From Pseudofrankia saprophytica (lineage in GTDB: Bacteria > Actinomycetota > Actinomycetes > Frankiales > Frankiaceae), in NCBI RefSeq assembly GCF_000235425.2, contig NZ_KI912266.1, positions 2,919,671 through 2,983,670 on the forward strand: a stretch of DNA of 64,000 bases, read 5' to 3'. Positions 3,932-14,152 of this stretch are shown piece by piece. Position 1 is the stretch's first letter, and each line of letters opens with the position of its first letter. Made by a program: the position numbers and the translations under genes. The notes under the pieces were generated by a model, which worked only from the letters and a program-made list of their open reading frames with translations, was not told the origin of the DNA and did not search any database.

Positions 3932-4768
3932 ATGAAGTTCGATCATCGTGATTGGCCCGAGCCTCGCTCGGAGGAGCACGGTCCGCGCGGCGGTGGCCGA
4001 CGGCACCACGGCCCGTTCCGTCGCCACCACCACCAGGGGTTCGCCCACCACCCCGGTCCCGGCATGGGCCCGTTCCCCGGTCCCGGCATGGGTCCGTTCC
4101 CTGGCCCCGGCCTCGGAGTGTTCGGGGGCCCGCCGCCCCTGGGCCCGGTTCCCCCGGGCGGTCCGGTCCCCCCGGGCGGCCCGGGGCCGTGGGGACGACG
4201 GGGGCGCCCAGGCGGTGGCCGCGGCCGCGCCGGCCGCGGCGACGTCCGCGCCGCCGTGCTGCTGCTGCTCGCCGAGGCGGACGGCCCGATGCACGGTTAC
4301 CAGCTGATGCAGGCGATCGCCGAACGCACCGGCGGTGCCTGGCAGCCCAGCCCCGGCGCCGTCTACCCGACGATCAGCCAGCTTGAGGACGAGGGCCTGG
4401 TCACCGTCACGGCCGAGGGCGGCCGGCGCCTGGTCACCCTCACCGAGGCCGGCCGGGAGCACGTCACCGCGAACCGCGGCACGCTCGGTGATCCGTTCGC
4501 CGGGTTCACTGCCCGCGCCGGCAGCGGCGCCAGCCTGCTCGGCCCGGCCCAGGAACTGCACGCCGCCATCTGGCAGGTCGCCAGGACCGGCGACGCGGAC
4601 CAGGTCGCGGCCGCCAACAAGGTCCTCACCGAGGCCCGGCGCGCGCTGTACCTGATCCTCGCTGGCGAGCCCGCCGCCGAATCGACTGCCGAGTCGACCG
4701 ACTCGGCCGCCGAGCCGGCGCCGCCGGCGGCATCCGCCCCGGATGACGCCACGCCCGCCGCCGAGTAG
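3932..4768 (+). CDS. PadR-family transcriptional regulator with His/Gly/Pro-rich N-terminus
   Basis: A 278-residue protein; the ATG at 3932 has a good AAGGAG site about 8 bp upstream. Residues about 100-185 form the PadR winged helix: DVRAAVLLLLAE, then GPMHGYQLMQAI, PSPGAVYPTISQLEDEGLV and the wing RRLVTLTEAGRE. The first 95 residues are unusual: many His (RRHHGPFRRHHHQGFAHH), two near-identical PGPGMGPFP units and PPGG runs, then a Gly/Arg-rich stretch. The C-terminal part (QELHAAIWQVARTG) resembles the family's dimerisation helix and ends in an Ala/Glu/Ser tail. The ligand is unknown; the His-rich tail suggests metal binding, which is inference. It is monocistronic. Confidence 0.88.
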   Translation: MKFDHRDWPEPRSEEHGPRGGGRRHHGPFRRHHHQGFAHHPGPGMGPFPGPGMGPFPGPGLGVFGGPPPLGPVPPGGPVPPGGPGPWGRRGRPGGGRGRAGRGDVRAAVLLLLAEADGPMHGYQLMQAIAERTGGAWQPSPGAVYPTISQLEDEGLVTVTAEGGRRLVTLTEAGREHVTANRGTLGDPFAGFTARAGSGASLLGPAQELHAAIWQVARTGDADQVAAANKVLTEARRALYLILAGEPAAESTAESTDSAAEPAPPAASAPDDATPAAE

Positions 4769-4784
4769 CTCGCGGCCGTCCAGC

Positions 4785-4829
4785 CCGCGCCCCTCTCCCG
4801 TCCGGCGAAGCCACGGAGGAGGGGCGCGG
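4785..4829 (+). terminator. Hairpin after the PadR gene
   Basis: Eleven-base arms CCGCGCCCCTC and GAGGGGCGCGG (4785-4795 and 4819-4829) pair perfectly around a 23-base loop, 17 bp after the stop codon. There is no T-run, so termination is likely but unproven. Confidence 0.5.
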
Positions 4830-5582
4830 CCAGCTCAGCTCGCCGTCCGCGGCCGGGTCTGGCCGTTTAGCCAGCCCAGCGGCTAGGGTGGCCGGCGGCC
4901 GGCGGCCGGCGGCCAGTCGCCGGTGGCGTGCCGGCGCGGCCGGCGTGGACTCGGCCGCTCGTCAGCAGCTCTACAGCTTTTCTTAAGGCGCAGCCAAGAC
5001 TCCGCCTCCATGCTGCATGGCGAGGCCCTTCTCACACCCGGTCGGTCGTCGCGTAGAGCTCCCTCCACGCGACGCCCGGCCGGGTCCCCCCACCAGCCCA
5101 GCCCGGCGCCAGCCCATCGAGGCTCGCGCGGCCGGTCTGCTACGCCGGGGGGCGGGCCGGACTTACCCCCGCGGACCCGCCTGAAGCGTGGACACATCCG
5201 GTAGTGACCGCCGTTTCGGCGGCACCGCGGTCCACACCGACGCCTTCACCGAGACTCGCCGGGCCATCCCGCGTCGAGCCATCCCGCGCCGGTCCCCGAC
5301 CTAACCCGTTCTGACCGGCGGACCGCTCGGCGATCGGAGCGGGCGATCTCTCTAACGATTTACGAATTCTCCGGTTGTCGCGCCGTTCGACGGCCGCATG
5401 ATCGAACAGGCCGGCGCCCGGAATCTTCCCGTTGGGGTCCCGTCGCGGCGTCCGGTTCGGCGGCGCGGTTTTCGAGATCGTGTGGCTGATTTGTCGCCCG
5501 GCTCCATCCTGGCCGCGCGATGGTCCACGGGTGGCCGCGGACGGTTTTGGCCGCGACGGGTGTGTAGACGGCCCACAACAAA
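4830..5582. other. Non-coding stretch between padR-like gene and cold-shock gene
   Basis: No open frame here shows a known domain or a good start. A 7-bp unit GCCGGCG is repeated about three times at 4891-4914. Otherwise I see nothing that can be named. Confidence 0.4.
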
Positions 5583-5612
5583 GCAGCGCGCGACCGCCGG
5601 GCCGCGCGCTGC
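5583..5612 (-). terminator. Rho-independent terminator of the cold-shock gene
   Basis: Perfect 10-bp arms (GCAGCGCGCG and CGCGCGCTGC) around a 10-base loop. Read on the minus strand they are followed by TTTGTTGT, and they lie 22 bp beyond the stop of the cold-shock gene. Confidence 0.8.
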
Positions 5613-5634
5613 TCTGTCTGAGGTCGAGGGGTCG

Positions 5635-5838
5635 TCAGACGGGCTGAACCTTGTCAGCCTGCGGACCCTTCTGGCCCTGCACGATCTCGAACTGCACGTT
5701 CTGTCCCTCGTCAAGCGACTTGTAGCCGTCCGACTGAATCGCCGAGAAGTGGACGAACACGTCCGGACCGCCACCGTCCACGGAGATGAATCCGAAGCCC
5801 TTCTCCGCGTTGAACCACTTGACGGTACCCTGAGCCAC
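5635..5838 (-). CDS. CspA-family cold-shock protein
   Basis: A 67-residue single OB-fold (cold-shock domain) protein that binds single-stranded nucleic acid and acts as an RNA chaperone. The signature is complete: [15 protein letters not shown] contains RNP1 (KGFGFI), and DVFVHFSAI carries RNP2 (VFVHF). The length is typical. The GTG start at 5838 follows AAGGAGAAC at good spacing; an extended frame upstream is not credible. The roughly 280-bp upstream gap may hold a long structured leader, as in other csp genes. It is monocistronic with its own terminator. Confidence 0.93.
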
Positions 5839-6118
5839 GAGCGTTCTCCTTGCTACTTTCCCGGTAGACGTCCTTCGTCTCCCGGTCTCGCGCCAGCCGC
5901 GGACCGCTCCACGGCCGGCCGTTCCCGTTCGACGATGCATGACGTTCATACAGCGGAGAACCGGTAACACCACCACCCTACCCGCCGTCGGCGCTGGCAG
6001 TCTCACCACGGCGGAACCACGGTCCCTCTGTTTGCGCGGCCAGGACGCACGAAAACGGGGCAATCGGCTGTGCCCGTGGCCTACTTGGCGTCTCTGGGCA
6101 GGGCCGGTCGGACGGGGC

Positions 6119-6613
6119 TCAGAGCGGGGCGAGGACCACGACGGGGATTTCGCGGTCGGTCCACCCCTGGTACCGCGCGAAGTCGGCGTAGAGATCGACC
6201 AGCCGCGGCCACAGATCGGCGCGCTCCTCGGGCGAGGCGACCCGGGCGCGGACGGGGATGTCGCGCCAACCCTTCATGTGCACCCGCGTCTCCGGGTGGG
6301 CGACGAGGTTCAGGTACCACTGCGGGTTCCTCGGCAGCCCGCCCTGGGAGGCCACGACGACCAGGTCGTCACCGGATCTCAGGTACAGCAGGGGCGTGGT
6401 GAACATCTTTCCGGACCTGCGGCCGCGGTGCTGGAGAAGCAGCGTCGGCACCGGCCGGCGGAAACCTGCCCCGACCCGCCACTTGCCGCCGATGCGCCCA
6501 TTGGTCATCCTGAAGATCTTCACCTGGGTCCTGGCCAGGTACTTGATGGCCTTGGCCGTCGTGGGGGAGTCCAGGCCGCTGGGGGCCTTCTCTGGCAGGG
6601 AGAAACGTGCCAC
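6119..6613 (-). CDS. DDN-like deazaflavin (F420)-dependent nitroreductase family protein
   Basis: A 164-residue member of the flavin/deazaflavin-dependent nitroreductase (DDN) family. Typical features are [20 protein letters not shown], where the RRSGK stretch lines the F420 pocket, then [18 protein letters not shown] and [10 protein letters not shown]. These proteins are split-barrel oxidoreductases that use reduced F420; natural substrates are mostly unknown, with quinones among those proposed. A possible RBS (GGAGCTTCGGT) precedes the start. The next F420-type gene lies 39 bp upstream in the same direction, so co-transcription is likely. Confidence 0.87.
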
Positions 6614-6652
6614 CGAAGCTCCTGAAAGTGCCCGATCTACCGACCCGCTGAT

Positions 6653-7168
6653 CTATCGGGGCTGAGGACCGGGGTAGTGGGCGGCTGTGGACCCTCCGAG
6701 GGGCATCGGGCTCATGCCGAGCTTGCGATGATCCCAGGAGCGAACGCGCTCGACATCGACGCGCACGGCTACACGCTTGTGGAGCATGAATTCCACCAGC
6801 GGCCGCGCCTCGTCGCTGTATGGGCCGTGGTACCGCTCCCAGACATTCACGCCCACGGCCCACAGCGCCTCGGGGTCGTCCACGATCTCGGCCCGCCCCT
6901 CCATCGAGACCCCACGCAGTGTGTCGTAGGTCAGGCCGTCCTCCAGCAGGACGGTGACCCGTGGGTCGCGGCGGATGTTGAGCGCCTTCTGCGCCTTGGC
7001 CTTGGTCTCGAACCACAGCACCCCGTCGAGGACGGCGAACCACATCGCGACGGCGTGCGGGTGGCCGGTCGGCCCGAGCGACACCAGCGTGGCCGTGCGC
7101 CGTGTCGCCACGTAGGCCGAGATCTCCTCGGCCGTCATCTCGATCTGGGATCGCTGGTTGGTGCCCAC
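6653..7168 (-). CDS. PPOX-class F420-dependent oxidoreductase
   Basis: A protein of about 171 residues with the pyridoxamine-phosphate-oxidase-like split barrel. Family features are ATLVSLGPTGHPHAVAMWFAV, GVLWFETKAKAQKALNIRRDPRVTVLLEDG and TLRGVSMEGRAEIV. The GTG at 7168 was chosen because AGGAGAGG stands just upstream; an ATG at 7138 (MTAEEISAY) would give the shorter form. Such proteins are usually F420H2-dependent reductases. It is probably cotranscribed with the DDN-like gene downstream, so two F420 enzymes would be made together. Confidence 0.87.
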   Translation of the reverse strand: MGTNQRSQIEMTAEEISAYVATRRTATLVSLGPTGHPHAVAMWFAVLDGVLWFETKAKAQKALNIRRDPRVTVLLEDGLTYDTLRGVSMEGRAEIVDDPEALWAVGVNVWERYHGPYSDEARPLVEFMLHKRVAVRVDVERVRSWDHRKLGMSPMPLGGSTAAHYPGPQPR

Positions 7169-7394
7169 CCGTCCCTCTCCTGGTCCGCTGTCCGCTGTCG
7201 GCGGTGGGAAGTCGGGGGTCCGACCCAGGCCGGTCCGTCCGGCGTCGCCAGAGAATGCCACAGAGTGTGCTCAAGCCGCGCGACTATCCCGGATATCCCT
7301 GAATCGCGAGCACCACGGCGGCTTTGCGCGGAAAGGGAGAGTCGAGCAGATCACCACTCCCGATCCCGCCGCCATCGACTGGACCGGGCCTGTC

Positions 7395-7769
7395 TCAGGA
7401 GACGTAACGCAGCCGGAGCGCCTGGCGCGGGCAGGTGTCGGCGGCGCGGCGGGCGTGCGCGGCCAGCGGCGGTGGGACCGGGATGTCGCGGCTGGGACGC
7501 CCCGGGGGGCGCTCGCCGTCGCGGGCGGCGGCCGCGCGGGCGGCCTCCTCGCGCGAGATCGGATAGCCCCACCGGTCCTGGGCGAGCACCTCGGGCAGCA
7601 GCTCGGCGCACCAGCCGCGGCCGTCGCACGCCGTCCAGTCGACGGTGAGCAGCCAGCTCGACGGCGGCTTCACCGCCGGTCGCGGGCCATCGCCGTGCGC
7701 CTGCCTGTCGGGTGCCGAGTGCGTGGGCGCCTGCGAACCGGCTGACGGTTGTGGCAGTCGACTGGTCAT
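7395..7769 (-). CDS. Three-cysteine ferredoxin, probably [3Fe-4S]
   Basis: A 124-residue protein. After a non-conserved N-terminus of about 40 residues come TVDWTACDGRGWCAELLPE, with Cys48 and Cys54, and ADTCPRQALRL, with Cys113 followed by Pro. The order C-x5-C...C-P matches small actinobacterial [3Fe-4S] ferredoxins. The ATG at 7769 follows GGAGGG at good spacing. The gene lies 127 bp after the NuoF-like gene on the same strand and is probably the last gene of that redox operon. It would be the soluble electron carrier of the module. Confidence 0.82.
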   Translation of the reverse strand: MTSRLPQPSAGSQAPTHSAPDRQAHGDGPRPAVKPPSSWLLTVDWTACDGRGWCAELLPEVLAQDRWGYPISREEAARAAAARDGERPPGRPSRDIPVPPPLAAHARRAADTCPRQALRLRYVS

Positions 7770-7896
7770 CGCTGTGCCCTCCCTGCTGGTCGGGTGGATG
7801 TGGTGGCTCGAGACGGTGTCGGCGGTGGGGGGGGGGAGCGCGGCCATGCCAGGAACTACCCGTTTCGCGGCGCCGCAGCCCTTTCGATGACGACGA

Positions 7897-9405
7897 TCAC
7901 GCGGCCGAACCCGCGCAGCGGCCGGCGGCGTGGGCGGCCAGGTCGACGGCGAAGGCTCGCAGCGCCGTGCGGACGAGGCGGGCGGCGCCGTCGGGATGGC
8001 GACAGGCGCCCCGCCCGTCGACCAGTTCGGCGAGCTCGGCCGCCTGCCACGCCCAGTGGCCAGTCAGGCCGCCCGTGGCCGGCAGGCTGGGCATCGCGGC
8101 CATCGCTCCCATCGCGGCCAGGCCGGACATCGCGGCCGCCAGCTCCGGCAGGCCGTCACGGCACGGCCCGCACTGCCCCGCGCTCTGCCCGGCCAGGTAG
8201 CCGACGATCCTGGCCGTCTCCGCCAGCCCGCAGAGCCGCCCGGGCAACAGGTGGACGAGACCAGGCCCGGGACCGGCGCCCCAGGCCGCGAGCCCGGCCC
8301 GTGACATCGGGACCGCGTGCGCCCGGCCCGCCGGCAGCCAGCCGCCGCCGTAGCCGCCGACGCGGACCGCCCCCGGCTCCTCGGCCGGGCCGCCCGCGAG
8401 CCCGACGATCTCCCTGAGGGTGGCGCCGACCGGCACCTCGACCAGCCCCGGGGAGACGACCGCGCCGCTGACGGTGACGAGCATGGTGCCCGGGTCGTCG
8501 GGCGCGCCGGTGCTCCGGAACCAGGCCGCGCCGTACCGGGCGACGAGTGCCACGTGGGCGAGCGTCTCGGCGTTGAGCACGACGACCGGACGACGCAGCC
8601 GCCCGGATCGCCCGGACTGCCCGGACTGCCCCGCCCGGCCGGCGCCGCGTGGCGCGGGCGCGGCGAGCGGGACCCACTGGGGGAACGGCCTGGCCGCCTT
8701 CCCGCCGACCACGGCCGCCGCGGCGGCGGTCGCCTCGCCCGCGACGAACACCCCCGCCGGGGCCGCTCGGACGACGGGTGGGACACGGTCGAGTCGGGCG
8801 GCCCGCCGTTCGGCCAGAGCGCGGGTCACGGCATCGGCGGCTGGGCCTGGCTTGACGTAGACCCGGGTGTCGGCCGCCGCGACGGCCTCGGCGACCAGCG
8901 CCAGACCGTCCAGCACCAGATGGGGCGCCGCGGTCAGCAGCCAGGCGTCCTTGCGACTCTCCGGCTCGCCCTCGGCGGCGTTGGCGATCACCGTCACCGA
9001 TCCACCCACCGCCTGCCCACCGCCTCCTCGCCCGGTGGCCGTCCCACCGTCGCGCGCGGCGGCCAGCTTGCGCCAGACGGGAAAGCCCGCGCCACCACGC
9101 CCGGTCAGGCCGGCGGCGCGTAGCTCATCGACGAGCGGGCCGGGACCGCCGCGCAACGGGACGGGGCCCAGCCGGGCAAGGTGCTCCTCGAGGCTCGCGG
9201 CGGCGGAGCCGAACAGGCGGGGCTCGTGACCCGGCCGCGCGGGAGATTCCGGCCCCGTGCAGGGCGGCGACCCGGCTGGGCGCGCCGCCCCTTCGGCCGC
9301 TCGCCCCGCCGCGGCGGCTCCCGGGCCCGAGGACGAGGCGGACATGACGTCCCCGTTCCGGCCGCGTCGCGGCAGTTGGGCGTCGTTCACGGGCGCCGCG
9401 GTCAT
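7897..9405 (-). CDS. NuoF-like NADH:acceptor oxidoreductase subunit with SLBB domain
   Basis: A 502-residue protein resembling the 51-kDa (NuoF) flavoprotein of complex I and related diaphorases. Seen in order: a disordered N-terminus (about 60 residues); the glycine-rich flavin/NADH segment GRGGAGFPVWRKL (about 102-114); ANAAEGEPESRKDAWLL, equivalent to the NuoF EPGTxKDR region; an SLBB-like segment (VTVSGAVVSPGLVEVPVG); and the C-terminal cluster region QCGPCRDGL, with a further Cys in GACRHPDG. The usual ESCGxCxPC is reduced, so a complete N3-type cluster is uncertain. The start ATG overlaps the upstream stop (ATGA), and GGAGGGGG precedes it. It probably feeds NADH electrons to the ferredoxin or the membrane partner. 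Confidence 0.78.
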   Translation of the reverse strand: MTAAPVNDAQLPRRGRNGDVMSASSSGPGAAAAGRAAEGAARPAGSPPCTGPESPARPGHEPRLFGSAAASLEEHLARLGPVPLRGGPGPLVDELRAAGLTGRGGAGFPVWRKLAAARDGGTATGRGGGGQAVGGSVTVIANAAEGEPESRKDAWLLTAAPHLVLDGLALVAEAVAAADTRVYVKPGPAADAVTRALAERRAARLDRVPPVVRAAPAGVFVAGEATAAAAAVVGGKAARPFPQWVPLAAPAPRGAGRAGQSGQSGRSGRLRRPVVVLNAETLAHVALVARYGAAWFRSTGAPDDPGTMLVTVSGAVVSPGLVEVPVGATLREIVGLAGGPAEEPGAVRVGGYGGGWLPAGRAHAVPMSRAGLAAWGAGPGPGLVHLLPGRLCGLAETARIVGYLAGQSAGQCGPCRDGLPELAAAMSGLAAMGAMAAMPSLPATGGLTGHWAWQAAELAELVDGRGACRHPDGAARLVRTALRAFAVDLAAHAAGRCAGSAA

Positions 9406-10049
9406 CGGACCCCCTCCGCGCTGGCGGGGTGGCTCGGGCCTGGGCGCGGTGACGATCTGGCGACGTCCGGGGGAGCCGGTCTCTGGCTCGCCCTCCTGGC
9501 CGAAAGGCTCGCCCTGCCGGCCATCGGGAAGGACGTCGAGCATCGCCAGCCGACCGCGAGCAGTACGGCGGCGGCGCAGAGCACGGCGACGAGCAACTGC
9601 CAGCGGGTGCCGACGTCGCTGCCCGAGCCGAGCGAGTGCGCGAACGCCAGCGGCCAGGTGGCGTAGGCGGCCCAGTGCAGGGCCCGCCAGGCGCGCGCGC
9701 CGATCCGGTGGCGCAGCAGGCTCGTCACGACGAGCGCCACGAGCAGGTCGAGCGCGACCGTCCCGAGCCCCACCCACAGCGACCGGTAGTTGGCGCGGAA
9801 CGGCAACACCACGTCAAGGGCGCCGATGTGGGCGTACGGGTCGGCGACCAGCGTCGTCACGTGGACGGCGAGCAGCGCCACTGCGAGCAGGCTCGCGTCG
9901 CGGTGCACCGTGGCCAGCGCGAACCCCGGCAGCCCGGCGGCCGGTCGCCCCGAGCGGGCCGTGATCCCCAGGACGACCGTCAGCGTCAGGACCAGCAGCA
10001 ACGTCATCCCGGTGCCGCGGGCGGCGTACCAGAGCGCGTCGTTCGTCAC
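9402..10049 (-). CDS. Ferric-reductase-like heme-b membrane protein
   Basis: A 215-residue protein with about six membrane helices: TLLLVLTLTVVLGITA, a helix with HRDASLLAVALLAVHVTTLV, one around LWVGLGTVALDLLVALVVTSLL, ALHWAAYATWPLAFAHSLG and LLVAVLCAAAVLLAVGW. Paired histidines in two helices (HRDA...AVHV and LHWA...FAHS) fit the bis-heme-b site of the ferric reductase/YedZ transmembrane superfamily. It has no own flavin or NAD domain, so the adjacent NuoF-like protein may supply electrons. Starts and stops overlap both neighbours (GTGA and ATGA), which implies translational coupling. The C-terminal 40 residues are Pro/Ser/Arg-rich. Confidence 0.77.
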   Translation of the reverse strand: MTNDALWYAARGTGMTLLLVLTLTVVLGITARSGRPAAGLPGFALATVHRDASLLAVALLAVHVTTLVADPYAHIGALDVVLPFRANYRSLWVGLGTVALDLLVALVVTSLLRHRIGARAWRALHWAAYATWPLAFAHSLGSGSDVGTRWQLLVAVLCAAAVLLAVGWRCSTSFPMAGRASLSARRASQRPAPPDVARSSPRPGPSHPASAEGVR

Positions 10050-11233
10050 CGCGCGTCGCCTTCCCACGCCGTGGCCGCCAGCGCCGCCGCTGCCAGCGCC
10101 GTGTCCGCCGTGTCCGCCGTGTCCGCCGTGTCCGCCGCGGTCGCCGTGACGGCGGCGATGGCGGTGGAGGTGCGATCGGGGGCGGAGGTGGGAGTGGGAG
10201 CCGGTGGGGCGGGTGGCCAGCCGGCGACGGCGTGGACGGAGCCGGCCGCGTCGACCAGCCGGGCGGGCAGGCCGGTCCGGCGCAGCCAGCCCACGGCCAG
10301 CTCGGCGCGGACGAGGGCGGCGGTGCTCGCGGTGTTCGCGGCGAGGCAGCTGCGCGCGGCGACGGTCACCGTCCGCCAGGTCACCGGGGCAGGCTGGCAG
10401 GTGCGCGGGTCCAGGATGTGGTGGAGCATCCGGCCGTCGCGTCGCCAGCGCCGGCCGATCGTGCTCGACGTGGCCAGCGCGCCGCCGGCGGCAAGCGTCA
10501 CGGCGCAGGCCGGCTCGCCAGGGCGGTCCCGCACCTGGACGCGCCACCCGCCTGGCGGCGCGGCGCCGGCCGTCGCGATGTCGCCGCCGAGGCTGACGAG
10601 CGTGCCCACGCCGAGCCGACTCGCGACCAGAGCCGCGCACCGGTCCGCCGCGTGCGCCTTCGCGGTTGCGCCCAGGTCGAGCTGGACGCCGGCTGGCACC
10701 GTCAGGACGTCGCCGTCGAGAACGATCCGCCGCCACGCGGGCGCGAGCCGCATGACAGTGGCCGGCGTGCCGTCGACGCCGAGCGCGGCCGTGGCGATGG
10801 CGAGCGCGGCGCCCGAACTGCCCGAACTGCCCGAACTGCCCGAAGCGTGCGCGGCGCCGGCGCGCGAGGCCCCGGCGGGGCTGGGCATGACCGCGCCGCC
10901 GGGGGCGATCAGGGCGATGTCGCGGTCGTAGCCGAGCGCGGCGAGCGGGCCGCCGAGCGTCGGGTCGACGTCGCCGCCGCTGGCCTCGGCCGCCTTGAGC
11001 GCGGCCGCGACCAGCTCGGCGAACAGCGGGCTGACCCTGTGCGGCCGCCCACCGGCGGTCGCGACCTGGCTGAGTTCGGAGTCGTCGCGGAACCGGCTCG
11101 CCGCCGCGTCCACGGCCGCGAGCTCCTCCACGACGAGCAGCCGCGCCTCGTCGATCGCCGCGGGGTCGGTGACGACCACCCGTGCCGTCGTGCTCCACAC
11201 CGCCCACTCGGCGGCGGCGTCCTCGGCGCGCAT
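10046..11233 (-). CDS. apbE: ApbE-family FAD:protein FMN transferase
   Basis: A 395-residue protein with the ApbE order of motifs: WSTTARVVV at the start; ASRFRDDSELSQV; GGDVDPTLGGPLAALGYDRD; QLDLGATAKAHAADRC; LVSLGGDIATAG; and DGRMLHHILDPRTCQP, whose acidic and Thr-type positions bind Mg-FAD. ApbE attaches FMN covalently to Ser/Thr of exported redox proteins, or supplies FMN. A Gly/Ser/Ala insert (ASGSSGSSGSSGAA) and a C-terminal stretch with repeated ADT units are not family features. No neighbour shows the usual flavinylation motif, so its target is unclear. The ATG at 11233 follows the upstream stop by one base. Confidence 0.87.
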   Translation of the reverse strand: MRAEDAAAEWAVWSTTARVVVTDPAAIDEARLLVVEELAAVDAAASRFRDDSELSQVATAGGRPHRVSPLFAELVAAALKAAEASGGDVDPTLGGPLAALGYDRDIALIAPGGAVMPSPAGASRAGAAHASGSSGSSGSSGAALAIATAALGVDGTPATVMRLAPAWRRIVLDGDVLTVPAGVQLDLGATAKAHAADRCAALVASRLGVGTLVSLGGDIATAGAAPPGGWRVQVRDRPGEPACAVTLAAGGALATSSTIGRRWRRDGRMLHHILDPRTCQPAPVTWRTVTVAARSCLAANTASTAALVRAELAVGWLRRTGLPARLVDAAGSVHAVAGWPPAPPAPTPTSAPDRTSTAIAAVTATAADTADTADTADTALAAAALAATAWEGDAR

Positions 11234-11234
11234 G

Positions 11235-11552
11235 TCAGCTCCCGCCCGAGCTGGCGTGGGAACCGCCCGTACCGCCGCCGGAGACCAGGCCGCCGCTGGA
11301 CCCGTCGTCGAACGACCAGGTCGAGTCGCCGCTCCCGGACGAGGACCCGTCGTCCTGTGTGCCGCCGGTGGTCGTGTTGCCGTCCGTCTCGCTGCCGCCC
11401 GAACCGGCCGATGCGGCGGAGTGATCACGCGCCAGGACGCCGAACCCGATGACGGCGGCGGCGCTGACGGCGAACAGGCTTCTGGTCGCCCTCGCCGTGC
11501 GCCGGATCCCGTCGTCGCGGGATGGTCGGACACCGTTGTCACGGGTTGGCAT
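11235..11552 (-). CDS. Small single-pass membrane protein, Gly/Ser/Thr-rich outside
   Basis: A 105-residue protein. A basic N-terminus (RRTARATR) precedes one hydrophobic segment, SLFAVSAAAVIGFGVLA (about residues 25-41). The rest is Ser/Gly/Thr/Asp-rich (GGTQDDGSSSGSGDSTW) with no cysteine or histidine cluster. This pattern suggests an N-in membrane anchor with a flexible extracytoplasmic tail. The ATG at 11552 has GGAGGGACAGG upstream. As first gene of the apbE operon it could be a scaffold or an acceptor of FMN; neither is shown, because the known flavinylation consensus is absent. Confidence 0.6.
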   Translation of the reverse strand: MPTRDNGVRPSRDDGIRRTARATRSLFAVSAAAVIGFGVLARDHSAASAGSGGSETDGNTTTGGTQDDGSSSGSGDSTWSFDDGSSGGLVSGGGTGGSHASSGGS

Positions 11553-11771
11553 GGTCCTGTCCCTCCGTCGGCCCTCGCCGCGATCGCCACCGTGAGCGAC
11601 CGGCCTCGCCATGGTTGGCGTGGTCGGTGCGGGTGCAACGATCGCTGCATCACCGTCAGAGTGACCGCGAACCCTTGGAGCGGACTGAACGGACGCTGTG
11701 CGCAGGCCCGGAGGATGTGTCAGCGACCCGACTCCTCGACCAGGCTTTTCGTACACCGGTCGGCCATCCCA

Positions 11772-12554
11772 CTAGCCGACGAGGATGACCTCCAGCGTGC
11801 GGGGCCCGTGCACCCCTTCGACCCGGTGGAGCTCGATGTCGCTGGTGGCGCTCGGCCCGCTGACCCAGGTCAGCGGGCGGGCCGCGGCGCCGGCGGCGCG
11901 CAGGCGGGCCAGGGCGTCCGGCACACCTGCGACCACCTGGTCGGCGCGCACGACCACCAGGTGGTAGTCGGGCACCAGGGACAGCGCCCGCCGGCCCTGC
12001 CCCGGGCCGCCGTCCAGCACGATCGTCCCGGTCTCGGCGATCGCGAGCGCGCAGCCGGTGAGCACCCCGTCGGTCGCGTCCAGCTCGGCGGCGGTCAGTG
12101 GCGGCTCGTCGTCGACCATCTCGATCCCGCGCGCCGCGGCGAGCCAGCCGGGTGGCAGACCCGGCGGGCGGACCAGTCGACGCGCGCCGCGCCCGGTCAG
12201 CGCGGCGGCGACGGCGGACGCGATGTTCCCGTCGGATGCGCCGTCCCCGTTGGGTATGCCGTCTCCGTCGAGGGCGCCGTCCCCGCCGGTCGCCGGGCCA
12301 CCGGGCGAGACCTGCCCGGCCGAGACCCCACGGACGAGTGCGTGGTAGTCGGTGAGTCGGCTGGCCAGCAGCTCGAACAGCGCAGCTGGCGGCGCGTCCG
12401 CCGCCAGGCTCGGAGATCCTGCGCCAGCGGTCCGGTAGTCCCGGGTGACGGGAGGCGGGGCCGGCCGGTCGGCGAGCGCCGCGCGCACCCGGGCCAGGAC
12501 CTCCGCCCGCGCGTCACCGGACGGCCGCGGCGGCAGCGGGTTCGTCGGACTCAT
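11772..12554 (-). CDS. lutC: L-lactate utilization protein LutC (LldG)
   Basis: A 260-residue LUD-domain protein. Its C-terminal half has the family motifs ITAxxA-like LTAAELDATDGVLTGC, AIAETGTIVLD, LVPDYHLVVV and GPSATSDIELHRVEGVHGPRTLEVILV. LutC acts with LutA and LutB in the iron-sulfur oxidation of L-lactate to pyruvate. An Asp/Gly-rich insert with repeated GDG units (about residues 88-110) is not typical. Its ATG overlaps the lutB stop (ATGA). In this locus it would complete oxidation of lactate made from rhamnose-derived lactaldehyde. Confidence 0.9.
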   Translation of the reverse strand: MSPTNPLPPRPSGDARAEVLARVRAALADRPAPPPVTRDYRTAGAGSPSLAADAPPAALFELLASRLTDYHALVRGVSAGQVSPGGPATGGDGALDGDGIPNGDGASDGNIASAVAAALTGRGARRLVRPPGLPPGWLAAARGIEMVDDEPPLTAAELDATDGVLTGCALAIAETGTIVLDGGPGQGRRALSLVPDYHLVVVRADQVVAGVPDALARLRAAGAAARPLTWVSGPSATSDIELHRVEGVHGPRTLEVILVG

Positions 12555-14152
12555 CGCGGCGTCCCTTCGTCCAGCGTCCCCTCGTCCGCCGCGTCGGTCG
12601 CGTCCGGCGCTTTCGGACGGTCGGAGCCGGGCCGCTGACGCGACCAGCGGTCGCGGAAGCTCTCGGCCGGGGGGAGCGGCAGGTCGCGACTGACGGTCCA
12701 GGCGGCCAGCGGCGGTGGCAGCCGGCCGATCGCGCCGCGGCGGCGCCCGAGCAGCCGGCCGAGGCGGGCGGCGCGTAGGGCGCGTGCCCAGCGGTCCGGT
12801 TTCGCCATCGTCCAGGCGGCCGCGGCCATGACGGCCCGTTCGGGCTTCGGCGGGTGGCCGGCGCCTCGTCCGGTATCCACGACTTTGGCGCGCAGGTGGA
12901 CCAGCATCGACGGTATGTCGATCGCGACGGGGCAGGCGTCCAGGCAGGCCCCACACAGCGTCGACGCGTAGGGCAGCGACGGGTTGTCGGCGACGCCGGC
13001 GAGCTGCGGCGACAGCACCGCGCCGATCGGGCCGGGGTAGACCGACCCATAGGCGTGGCCGCCGGTCCGCTCGTAGACCGGGCAGACGTTCAGGCAGGCC
13101 GCGCACCGGATGCAGCGCAGCGCCGCCCGCCCGGCCGGGTCCGCGAGCGTCGCCGTCCGGCCGTTGTCCAGCAGCACCAGATGGAACGCCTGCGGCCCGT
13201 CGCCGGGTGCCACCCCCGTCCACATCGAGGTGTAGGGATTCATCCGCTCGCCGGTCGCCGAGCGGGGCAGCAGCTGGAGGAAGACCTCCAGGTCGCGCCA
13301 GGTCGGGACGATCTTCTCCAGGCCCATCACGGTGATGAGCGTGTCGGGCAGCGTCAGGCACATCCGGCCGTTGCCCTCCGACTCGACGACCGCGAGCGTG
13401 CCCGTCTCGGCGACGGCGAAGTTCGCCCCGCTGATCGCGACCCGGGCGGACAGGAAACGCTCCCGCAGATGCCGGCGGGCGGCCTCGGCGAGCGCCCGGG
13501 GCTCGTCGGTCAGGCCGGGCGGCGCGGGGACGCCGCCGGAGGCGCCCATCTCCCGGACGAAGATGTCGCGGATCTCGGCGCGGTTGCGGTGGATCGCCGG
13601 GACGACGATGTGGCTGGGCCGGTCGTGGCCGAGCTGGACGATCAGCTCGGCGAGGTCGGTCTCCCAGGCGGCGACGCCGGCGTCGGCGAGCGCCTCGTTC
13701 AGGCCGATCTCCTGGGTCGCCATCGACTTGACCTTGACGACCTCGGTGGCGCCCGCCGCGTGGACGAGGTCGACGACGATCCGGTTGGCCTCGTTGGCGT
13801 CGCGCGCCCAGTGGACGACGCCGCCGCGCGCGGTGACCTGCTCCTCCAGCTGGACCAGGTAGTCGCCCAGGTTCGCGAGCACGTCGTCCTTGATCGCGGC
13901 ACCGGCGGCCCGCAGTTGGTCCCAGTCGTCGAGCTCGGCGACGACGCGCGCCCGGCGCCCGCGGATCGTGCCCGTCGCCTTCCCCAGGTTGCGACGTAGC
14001 TGCGCGTCGCCGAGCGCCCGGCGGGCGGCCACCGGGAACGGCTCGTCGCCGCGCAGCATCCCGACCCCACGCGGCGCCGTCGGCGGCACCACCGCCGGCA
14101 GCCCCAGAAACGTCGCCGCGGATGCCCCCGTCGCCCCGCCCGACGCCGTCAC
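12551..14152 (-). CDS. lutB: L-lactate utilization iron-sulfur protein LutB (LldF)
   Basis: A 533-residue protein. The N-terminal LUD domain holds VVKVKSMATQEIGLNEAL, ETDLAEL, HIVVPAIHRNRAEI and FAVAETGTLAVVESEGNGRM. The C-terminal ferredoxin-like part has two 4Fe-4S motifs, CIRCAACLNVCPVY and CGACLDACPVAIDIP, with the conserved YGSVYPGPIGAVLSP between them. It transfers lactate electrons within LutABC. The GTG at 14152 follows AGGATGTC; the first 20 residues are Ala/Gly-rich. It is the first gene after a 321-bp gap with nested inverted repeats, so lutBC may have its own promoter or control point. Confidence 0.93.
   Translation of the reverse strand: MTASGGATGASAATFLGLPAVVPPTAPRGVGMLRGDEPFPVAARRALGDAQLRRNLGKATGTIRGRRARVVAELDDWDQLRAAGAAIKDDVLANLGDYLVQLEEQVTARGGVVHWARDANEANRIVVDLVHAAGATEVVKVKSMATQEIGLNEALADAGVAAWETDLAELIVQLGHDRPSHIVVPAIHRNRAEIRDIFVREMGASGGVPAPPGLTDEPRALAEAARRHLRERFLSARVAISGANFAVAETGTLAVVESEGNGRMCLTLPDTLITVMGLEKIVPTWRDLEVFLQLLPRSATGERMNPYTSMWTGVAPGDGPQAFHLVLLDNGRTATLADPAGRAALRCIRCAACLNVCPVYERTGGHAYGSVYPGPIGAVLSPQLAGVADNPSLPYASTLCGACLDACPVAIDIPSMLVHLRAKVVDTGRGAGHPPKPERAVMAAAAWTMAKPDRWARALRAARLGRLLGRRRGAIGRLPPPLAAWTVSRDLPLPPAESFRDRWSRQRPGSDRPKAPDATDAADEGTLDEGTPR

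Follow-up and report, generated by a model that had tools for sequence, protein, structure and literature searches.

We analysed a 64,000-nucleotide window of the Pseudofrankia saprophytica genome (RefSeq assembly GCF_000235425.2, contig NZ_KI912266.1, positions 2,919,671 to 2,983,670 of the forward strand), in which five minus-strand genes form an operon for a small tail protein, an ApbE, a heme-b membrane protein (encoded by cytb), a NuoF-like protein and a ferredoxin. We propose, at a probability of roughly 0.72, that this operon encodes a transmembrane wire from NADH (reduced nicotinamide adenine dinucleotide) to heme, ending in flavin mononucleotide (FMN) that the operon's own ApbE attaches covalently to the C-terminal Ser of the tail protein. 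The proposal builds on the gene set, its conservation, the C-terminal motif of the tail, conserved His and Cys residues of the electron carriers and a predicted fold resembling NADPH oxidases (NOX). The features concerned are as follows.

11235..11552, minus strand: tail protein gene; 105 residues; without a Pfam or NCBIfam family
11235..11258, minus strand: C-terminal flavinylation-like peptide HASSGGS plus stop codon; its last Ser is the proposed FMN site
10046..11233, minus strand: apbE; 395 residues; FAD:protein FMN transferase family (FAD, flavin adenine dinucleotide); Pfam ApbE 4.8e-44
9402..10049, minus strand: heme-b membrane protein gene (cytb); 215 residues; Pfam Ferric_reduct 8.8e-9; predicted MsrQ/NOX fold
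7897..9405, minus strand: nuoF-like gene; 502 residues; Pfam Nuo51, SLBB and NADH_4Fe-4S
7395..7769, minus strand: ferredoxin gene; 124 residues; Pfam Fer4_15; single cluster

Operon layout and proposed mechanism

The genes are transcribed in the order tail protein, apbE, cytb, nuoF-like gene and ferredoxin, and fill positions 7395–11552 exactly as the original prediction had placed them. One base separates the tail protein stop from the apbE start, and the stop-start overlaps described earlier are present, as GTGA between apbE and cytb and as ATGA between cytb and the nuoF-like gene. Between the nuoF-like gene and the ferredoxin gene lie 127 bases, and the latter is preceded by a separate ribosome-binding-like GGGAGGG; an alternative upstream start at 7847, without such a GGGAGGG, is possible.

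We infer flavinylation, the path of the electrons and its direction, the membrane side and the acceptor as follows. NADH would reduce the flavo-iron-sulfur NuoF-like subunit, which would pass electrons through a ferredoxin of the 3Fe-4S type to the two-heme membrane protein of the NOX/MsrQ type; from there they would go to FMN, attached by the operon's ApbE to the last Ser of the tail. The tail protein would consist of a membrane anchor and a flexible line with no recognisable flavin-binding fold. Since this line is fold-free, flexible and rich in Ser, Thr and Gly, FMN would sit at the end of a swinging arm, probably at the outer face, and could there meet mobile acceptors such as ferric iron, quinones and oxygen. 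A chain from NADH through ferredoxin and cytochrome b to a flavin had been suggested before; it holds up as a model with a flavinylated acceptor, its genes being conserved together, but the accompanying statement that no flavinylation motif is seen does not, as the small protein terminates in HASSGGS-stop, a variant of an ApbE-type end whose canonical form is found in Streptomyces relatives.

The tail protein ends in a motif resembling that of ApbE substrates

In the alignment, the tail protein is built of a basic N-terminus, one hydrophobic helix, a variable Ser/Thr/Gly-rich tail and a fixed end. It matches no Pfam model above cut-off, no NCBIfam model and not FMN_bind (PF04205), which rules out an FMN_bind domain within it. 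The motif modified by ApbE is D-x-x-[S/T]-G-A-[S/T], with FMN on the last residue; seven residues suffice, the Asp is replaceable with minor effect, Gly-to-Ala and Ala-to-Val changes leave about half the labelling, and an engineered tag is most effective at the protein end (PMC12052999; this and the other papers are cited from the portions of their text that were available). A C-terminal motif adjoining apbE is thus what a natural tag would be expected to look like, and the tail therefore points to ApbE.

Tails were surveyed in the family loci, in relatives from named genomes and in stretches from 118 genomes of the class. Each tail open reading frame (ORF) was chosen by a script on position, helix, codon bias and composition, with the ORF end left unused. 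Such an ORF adjoins apbE or cytb in 101 of the 113 loci with a strong NuoF-like gene. The relaxed pattern [ST]x[GA][ST]-stop closes 86 of these 101 tails (mean 4.7 and maximum 13 for shuffled tails, 500 shuffles per tail) and the strict pattern [ST]G[GA][ST]-stop closes 65 (shuffled mean 0.64, maximum 3), statistics that ignore kinship among the loci. The canonical Dxx[ST]GA[ST]-stop is found in 16 of 101, namely 15 Streptomyces and strain OV320; because the Streptomyces rows are close relatives, these are not 16 independent events. Counted by isolate label (17 named genera plus OV320), the relaxed motif occurs in 17/18 and the strict one in 13/18. By comparison, none of 11 ORFs picked beside FMN_bind-type apbE genes has a motif end. 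FMN_bind-type here denotes either an FMN_bind match or, where NuoF is absent, a low ApbE score, which was the criterion for several of the 14 such cases.

Position-wise conservation was read from 106 unique tails, a set from which wrong automatic picks (L035, L098, L103) had been removed, to which the by-eye tails of L098 and L183 and that of the window had been added, and in which some doubtful picks, such as L181, are retained. Ser or Thr occupies the last position in 96 and position −4 in 94, and Gly or Ala occupies position −2 in 96. Duplicate genomes occur among the loci (L040 = L046; L062 = L168). The tail after the helix measures 23–221 residues (median 77); one quarter of it is Ser, and 8.6% is aromatic, Ile, Leu, Met, Val or Cys. 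Mean net charge is +3.4 for the N-terminus and −2.0 for the tail, and as the N-terminus is the more positive part in 87/106 unique tails, the tail is predicted to lie outside the membrane.

The five genes are conserved together

The NuoF-like gene scores above 200 bits in 17 of 35 genomes of the family, and the gene order around it is the same in these genomes wherever the contig reaches. The small gene is present in 14/14 family loci with enough upstream sequence (the window and 13 others); at L032, L034, L035 and L042 the contig ends before it. The operon is widespread in Actinomycetota, with 113 NuoF-like loci, some from the same genomes, and this presence across the phylum rules out that the window is a horizontal oddity. 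A scan of named genomes with the NuoF-like alignment gave 504 relatives, the best 80 of which, a biased set, all carry actinobacterial names. Joint occurrence of the five genes is far beyond chance. A neighbourhood survey had been put forward as a check on the operon, with genes not conserved together as the outcome that would speak against it; the genes proved to be conserved together across relatives.

In L089, L099, L115 and L200, apbE lies apart, and the tail gene remains with cytb and nuoF. The same holds in genome G037, which has apbE and ferredoxin at a different place; in L099 and L115, both are on the opposite strand some kilobases away. That the tail stays with cytb and nuoF when apbE is apart fits its being part of the electron path.

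A same-genus relative (G032; L045, G032:C231) lacks the tail gene, apbE, cytb and most of nuoF, which were therefore lost together; what remains there is the ferredoxin gene, the lut genes and a small remnant of the end of nuoF. Another genome, G033, holds two copies of the operon (L031, L044). Plasmids of Rhodococcus, Cnuibacter and Arthrobacter (L216, L217, L218) carry it as well, with tail ORFs ending SAGS, TKGS and TRAS; the tail ORF is missing from the gene tables of three plasmid records (of seven matches), tables that are incomplete by design. In a sister set of loci (L196–L199, L204–L206) that have a NuoF-like gene, a weak-scoring cytb and a ferredoxin, but lack apbE within the stretch, these genes are not accompanied by a motif-ending tail; the loose pattern caught one opposite-strand ORF each in L196 and L199, taken as chance. 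This set is possibly an unflavinylated sister system.

Electron-carrier proteins

The heme-b protein keeps His 49, 63, 125 and 138 in 106–107 of 107 sequences, which leaves room for two hemes. It matches PF01794 alone and is without the fused FAD/NAD(P)-binding domain of NOX enzymes; its occurrence in the apbE cluster was established by Pfam for the window and by a custom hidden Markov model (HMM) for the relatives. The predicted model is a helix bundle (mean predicted local distance difference test score, pLDDT, 85.6) whose best structural match is SpNOX (8qt6; Z 13.5 over 148 residues, root-mean-square deviation 3.6), followed by NOX5, STEAP and cytochrome b561. Although helical bundles can reach such a Z by chance, the top rows are all membrane heme-b carriers and the Ferric_reduct match agrees, so that a NOX-like fold is predicted; phmmer of the heme-b protein against the PDB gave no match.

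The NuoF-like protein (mean pLDDT of the predicted model 78.5) keeps the Gly-rich NADH/FMN site and five invariant cysteines, C392, C412, C415, C468 and C497. Its cluster motif is indeed reduced, as had been noted: in 109/111 sequences, Ala (A409) takes the place of the first Cys in the SCGxCxxC motif of complex I. Its closest solved sequence relatives are complex I subunits, and no NuoE or NuoG gene was found among the neighbours inspected. The idea that the operon is a complex I fragment was rejected: a separate NuoF-like match lies at G000:C1:449950, and the operon's protein reaches 139.6 bits with the complex I NuoF model, whose cut-off is 558.65. In the ferredoxin, three Cys (C48, C54, C113) are conserved in a CxxxxxC...CP pattern, which we take to be of the 3Fe-4S type by motif.

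ApbE and the substrates available in relatives

The window ApbE matches PF02424 (4.8e-44), with the core Ser (S256) kept in 109/109 and the His (H272) in 108/109 sequences. The class sample of 118 genomes contains ApbE in 72 and FMN_bind in 46, and ApbE without FMN_bind in 26, a count made at the threshold used, just below which G001 and G012 probably have FMN_bind. In the 14 of these 26 orphan genomes tested, NqrB/RnfD and DUF3570 were each found in 0/14, and DUF2271 appeared above cut-off in G119 and below it in G067; the families covered were FMN_bind, NqrB/RnfD, DUF2271 and DUF3570. Six orphan genomes with a single ApbE have none of these four families above cut-off and do have motif-like tail ends (G037 SRGS, G038 THGS, G042 TSGS, G044 SGGS, G067 TQGS, G074 SGGS). 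Within the NuoF-like loci, an 11-sequence HMM gave no FMN_bind match, a model that misses FMN_bind-like lipoproteins in L185, L187, L189 and L193, and in the class sample the Pfam FMN_bind profile had no match inside any fetched NuoF-like stretch.

Evidence against the model and rival readings

Several observations weigh against a flavinylated tail. The window motif is a variant, with His for Asp and Gly for Ala, and it ends in Ser, less favoured than Thr (PMC12052999). Position −3 is Gly in 71/106 unique tails and another residue in 35/106, and His or Asp stands at −7 in just 51/106. Among the 101 tail picks, 15 fail the motif: it lies a few residues before the end in L041, L124 and L159 and further inside in L123 and L160; L057 and L118 end SGSS; the fit is looser in L095, L097, L107, L112 and L164; and a wrong ORF was picked in L035, L098 and L103, the by-eye tail of L098 ending TSGGS. 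No pick was obtained in 12 of 113 loci. By eye, L183 ends THGS, L170 STGASGA and L169 TRASKG; in L100 and L122 the expected end lies in a different reading frame, which is what a frameshift or an error in sequencing would produce; neither apbE nor tail is seen in L047 and L087; and L032, L042, L056 and L194 lie at the edge of a contig or close to it. A Frankiaceae metagenome-assembled genome (L106) has apbE, cytb, nuoF and ferredoxin, with no tail seen in three frames; conversely, the fetched stretches of L048, L102, L117 and L195 contain a tail but not apbE, genome G050 (L195) having other ApbEs. The window genome also has two ordinary FMN_bind/ApbE clusters. Two further points concern the enzyme. 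Aligned to solved ApbEs, the window protein has Asn300 in place of the catalytic/metal Asp (ADxxxT), and a hydrophobic N-terminus is found by hydropathy in just 4/96 core ApbEs, which is awkward for an extracytoplasmic tail.

The Asn was read in 86/101 core loci (13 not read; 2 regex misreads also Asn); being clade-wide, it is not decay. Judged from sequence, FMN transferase activity of this ApbE clade is not assured. It could instead be an FAD hydrolase resembling Ftp, feeding FMN to NuoF, with the heme protein alone reducing the acceptor. The Asn for catalytic Asp and the FAD pyrophosphatase activity of Treponema Ftp (PMC4767422) speak for such an enzyme, which we nevertheless regard as quite improbable, as the core Ser and His are kept and the tail with its C-terminal motif would be left unexplained.

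Where the tail lies bears on a second possibility, that a covalent FMN tail faces the cytosol, is reduced by NuoF and ferredoxin and passes the electrons on to the inner heme, the heme protein alone then reducing the outside acceptor. Such an arm would replace the FAD domain of NADPH oxidases, and it would agree with ApbEs that carry no signal peptide, with a membrane protein that shares the transmembrane fold of NOX but not its FAD/NAD domain, and with the cytosolic ApbE and cytosolic substrate of Klebsiella (PMC12052999). The charge asymmetry given above (+3.4 against −2.0) predicts the tail outside, however, and FMN_bind-type actinobacterial ApbEs have a signal peptide in 0/14 cases, including neighbours of evident lipoproteins (FMN_bind matches in L184, L186 and L190; look-alikes in L185, L187, L189 and L193). 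Signal peptides were called by hydropathy alone, without SignalP; loci lacking one in ApbE are L184–L190, L193, L208–L210 and L213–L215 in addition to the core loci. As ApbEs beside FMN_bind lipoproteins lack it too, a missing signal is not informative on the side; actinobacterial ApbE seems to work before export or to leave by another route. We consider a cytosolic arm unlikely.

It is likewise doubtful that the tail is no ApbE substrate at all, its conserved end serving docking or assembly while ApbE modifies an FMN_bind protein encoded elsewhere. Motif variants such as SRGS, THGS and TKGS, the tails of L048 and L102, whose stretches contain no apbE, and the two FMN_bind proteins of the window genome would be in keeping with this; against it stand the canonical motif in Streptomyces tails, the six single-ApbE genomes without FMN_bind, and the FMN_bind genes of the window genome, each of which adjoins its own apbE. 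Finally, MsrQ-like clusters typically include FMN_bind (Meheust 2021, PMC8238504), so the operon could be an ordinary cluster of this kind that lost its FMN_bind gene, with the small gene as a remnant. A remnant would decay; the small gene is instead kept in every family locus with enough upstream sequence and across the phylum, with a conserved end, making this account very improbable.

Relation to known flavinylation systems

We propose that the operon functions in the manner of an MsrQ-like flavinylation system but has a substrate of a new kind. MsrQ-like clusters, 31 of which have a NuoF-like gene, share with it the Ferric_reduct protein predicted to hold two hemes, the ApbE and the NuoF-like PF10589 donor; they use an FMN_bind substrate, whereas here there is a fold-free tail with a C-terminal motif (PMC8238504). 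The operon had been called new; this applies to the fold-free tail substrate, while clusters of MsrQ-like, NuoF-like and ApbE genes were noted before (PMC8238504). That survey required one of the ApbE, FMN_bind, DUF2271 or DUF3570 genes of a cluster to encode a signal peptide or lipidation site. With no FMN_bind match here and few hydrophobic ApbE N-termini, clusters of the present kind would probably for the most part have been dropped by this filter.

Known ApbE substrates comprise FMN_bind, NqrB/RnfD, DUF2271, DUF3570, Flavodoxin_4 and FMN_red (PMC8238504, PMC11334425). Flavodoxin and FMN_red were added by Huang 2024; in FMN_red, the motifs lie on an unstructured extension at the C-terminus of the flavin-binding domain (PMC11334425). 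All share with the tail a [ST]GA[ST]-like motif next to apbE; they are folded domains or integral membrane proteins, unlike the fold-free tail. The available portions of Meheust 2021 (PMC8238504) and Huang 2024 (PMC11334425) describe no fold-free substrate. Nor was a fold-free natural ApbE substrate found in the literature titles and abstract starts surveyed, a coverage that leaves supplements and most closed-access papers outside, so that prior notice is possible. A further parallel is Flavin-tag, an engineered seven-residue ApbE tag (Tong et al. 2021, via PMC12052999): a short protein-end motif is enough for ApbE there, as proposed here, but Flavin-tag is engineered, and the present motif is natural, genome-encoded, C-terminal and on a membrane-anchored line.

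The electron carriers also have familiar counterparts. SpNOX, eukaryotic NOX and STEAP have in common with the heme-b protein a transmembrane helix bundle with conserved His pairs; the fused FAD/NAD domain of NOX is absent, and the NuoF-like protein and ferredoxin would stand in for it. Complex I NuoF shares the Nuo51 FMN/NADH site, SLBB and iron-sulfur domain with the NuoF-like protein, which differs in having Ala for the first cluster Cys and two extra invariant Cys (C392, C497).

These comparisons suggest, and we think it reasonably probable, that Actinomycetota use a natural C-terminal flavin tag: an anchored, fold-free line, conserved in its anchor and its final few residues, that carries FMN outside any pocket and forms the mobile terminus of a wire from NADH to heme. 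This mode of attachment may be general: two proteins beside other actinobacterial apbE genes, a DUF2271 protein (L165 2941–3672, minus strand) and a lipoprotein (L167), end TTYTRGS and DSHSHGS, as the tails do. If so, many actinobacterial ApbEs would have as their substrate a fold-free tail with FMN on its final residue, at a time when some genomes with an orphan apbE are still without a substrate (PMC8238504); a flavin could transfer electrons without being held in a pocket; and NADH-driven electron export would be widespread in Streptomyces, Frankiaceae, mycobacteria and relatives.

Genomic neighbourhood

No terminal reductase is among the 18 commonest neighbour families. A response-regulator family, named by eye, lies near 21/80 loci and a second family near 20; the latter is taken for the kinase on the strength of two plasmid records in which a pair of this kind is annotated at that place. 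A link with the lactate (lut) genes was considered and rejected: among family loci the full lut set is limited to the window, L028 and L045, so the association is incidental. Streptomyces loci share neighbours that by eye are housekeeping genes, and one plasmid copy of the operon lies near a VIT-family gene. The window genome spans 10 Mb in two contigs; at L007 (~4400–13900; G000:C1:812–822 kb) it has two near-duplicate clusters of an MsrQ-like/NAD-domain fusion, FMN_bind and ApbE, separated by what by eye are a histidine kinase and a response regulator.

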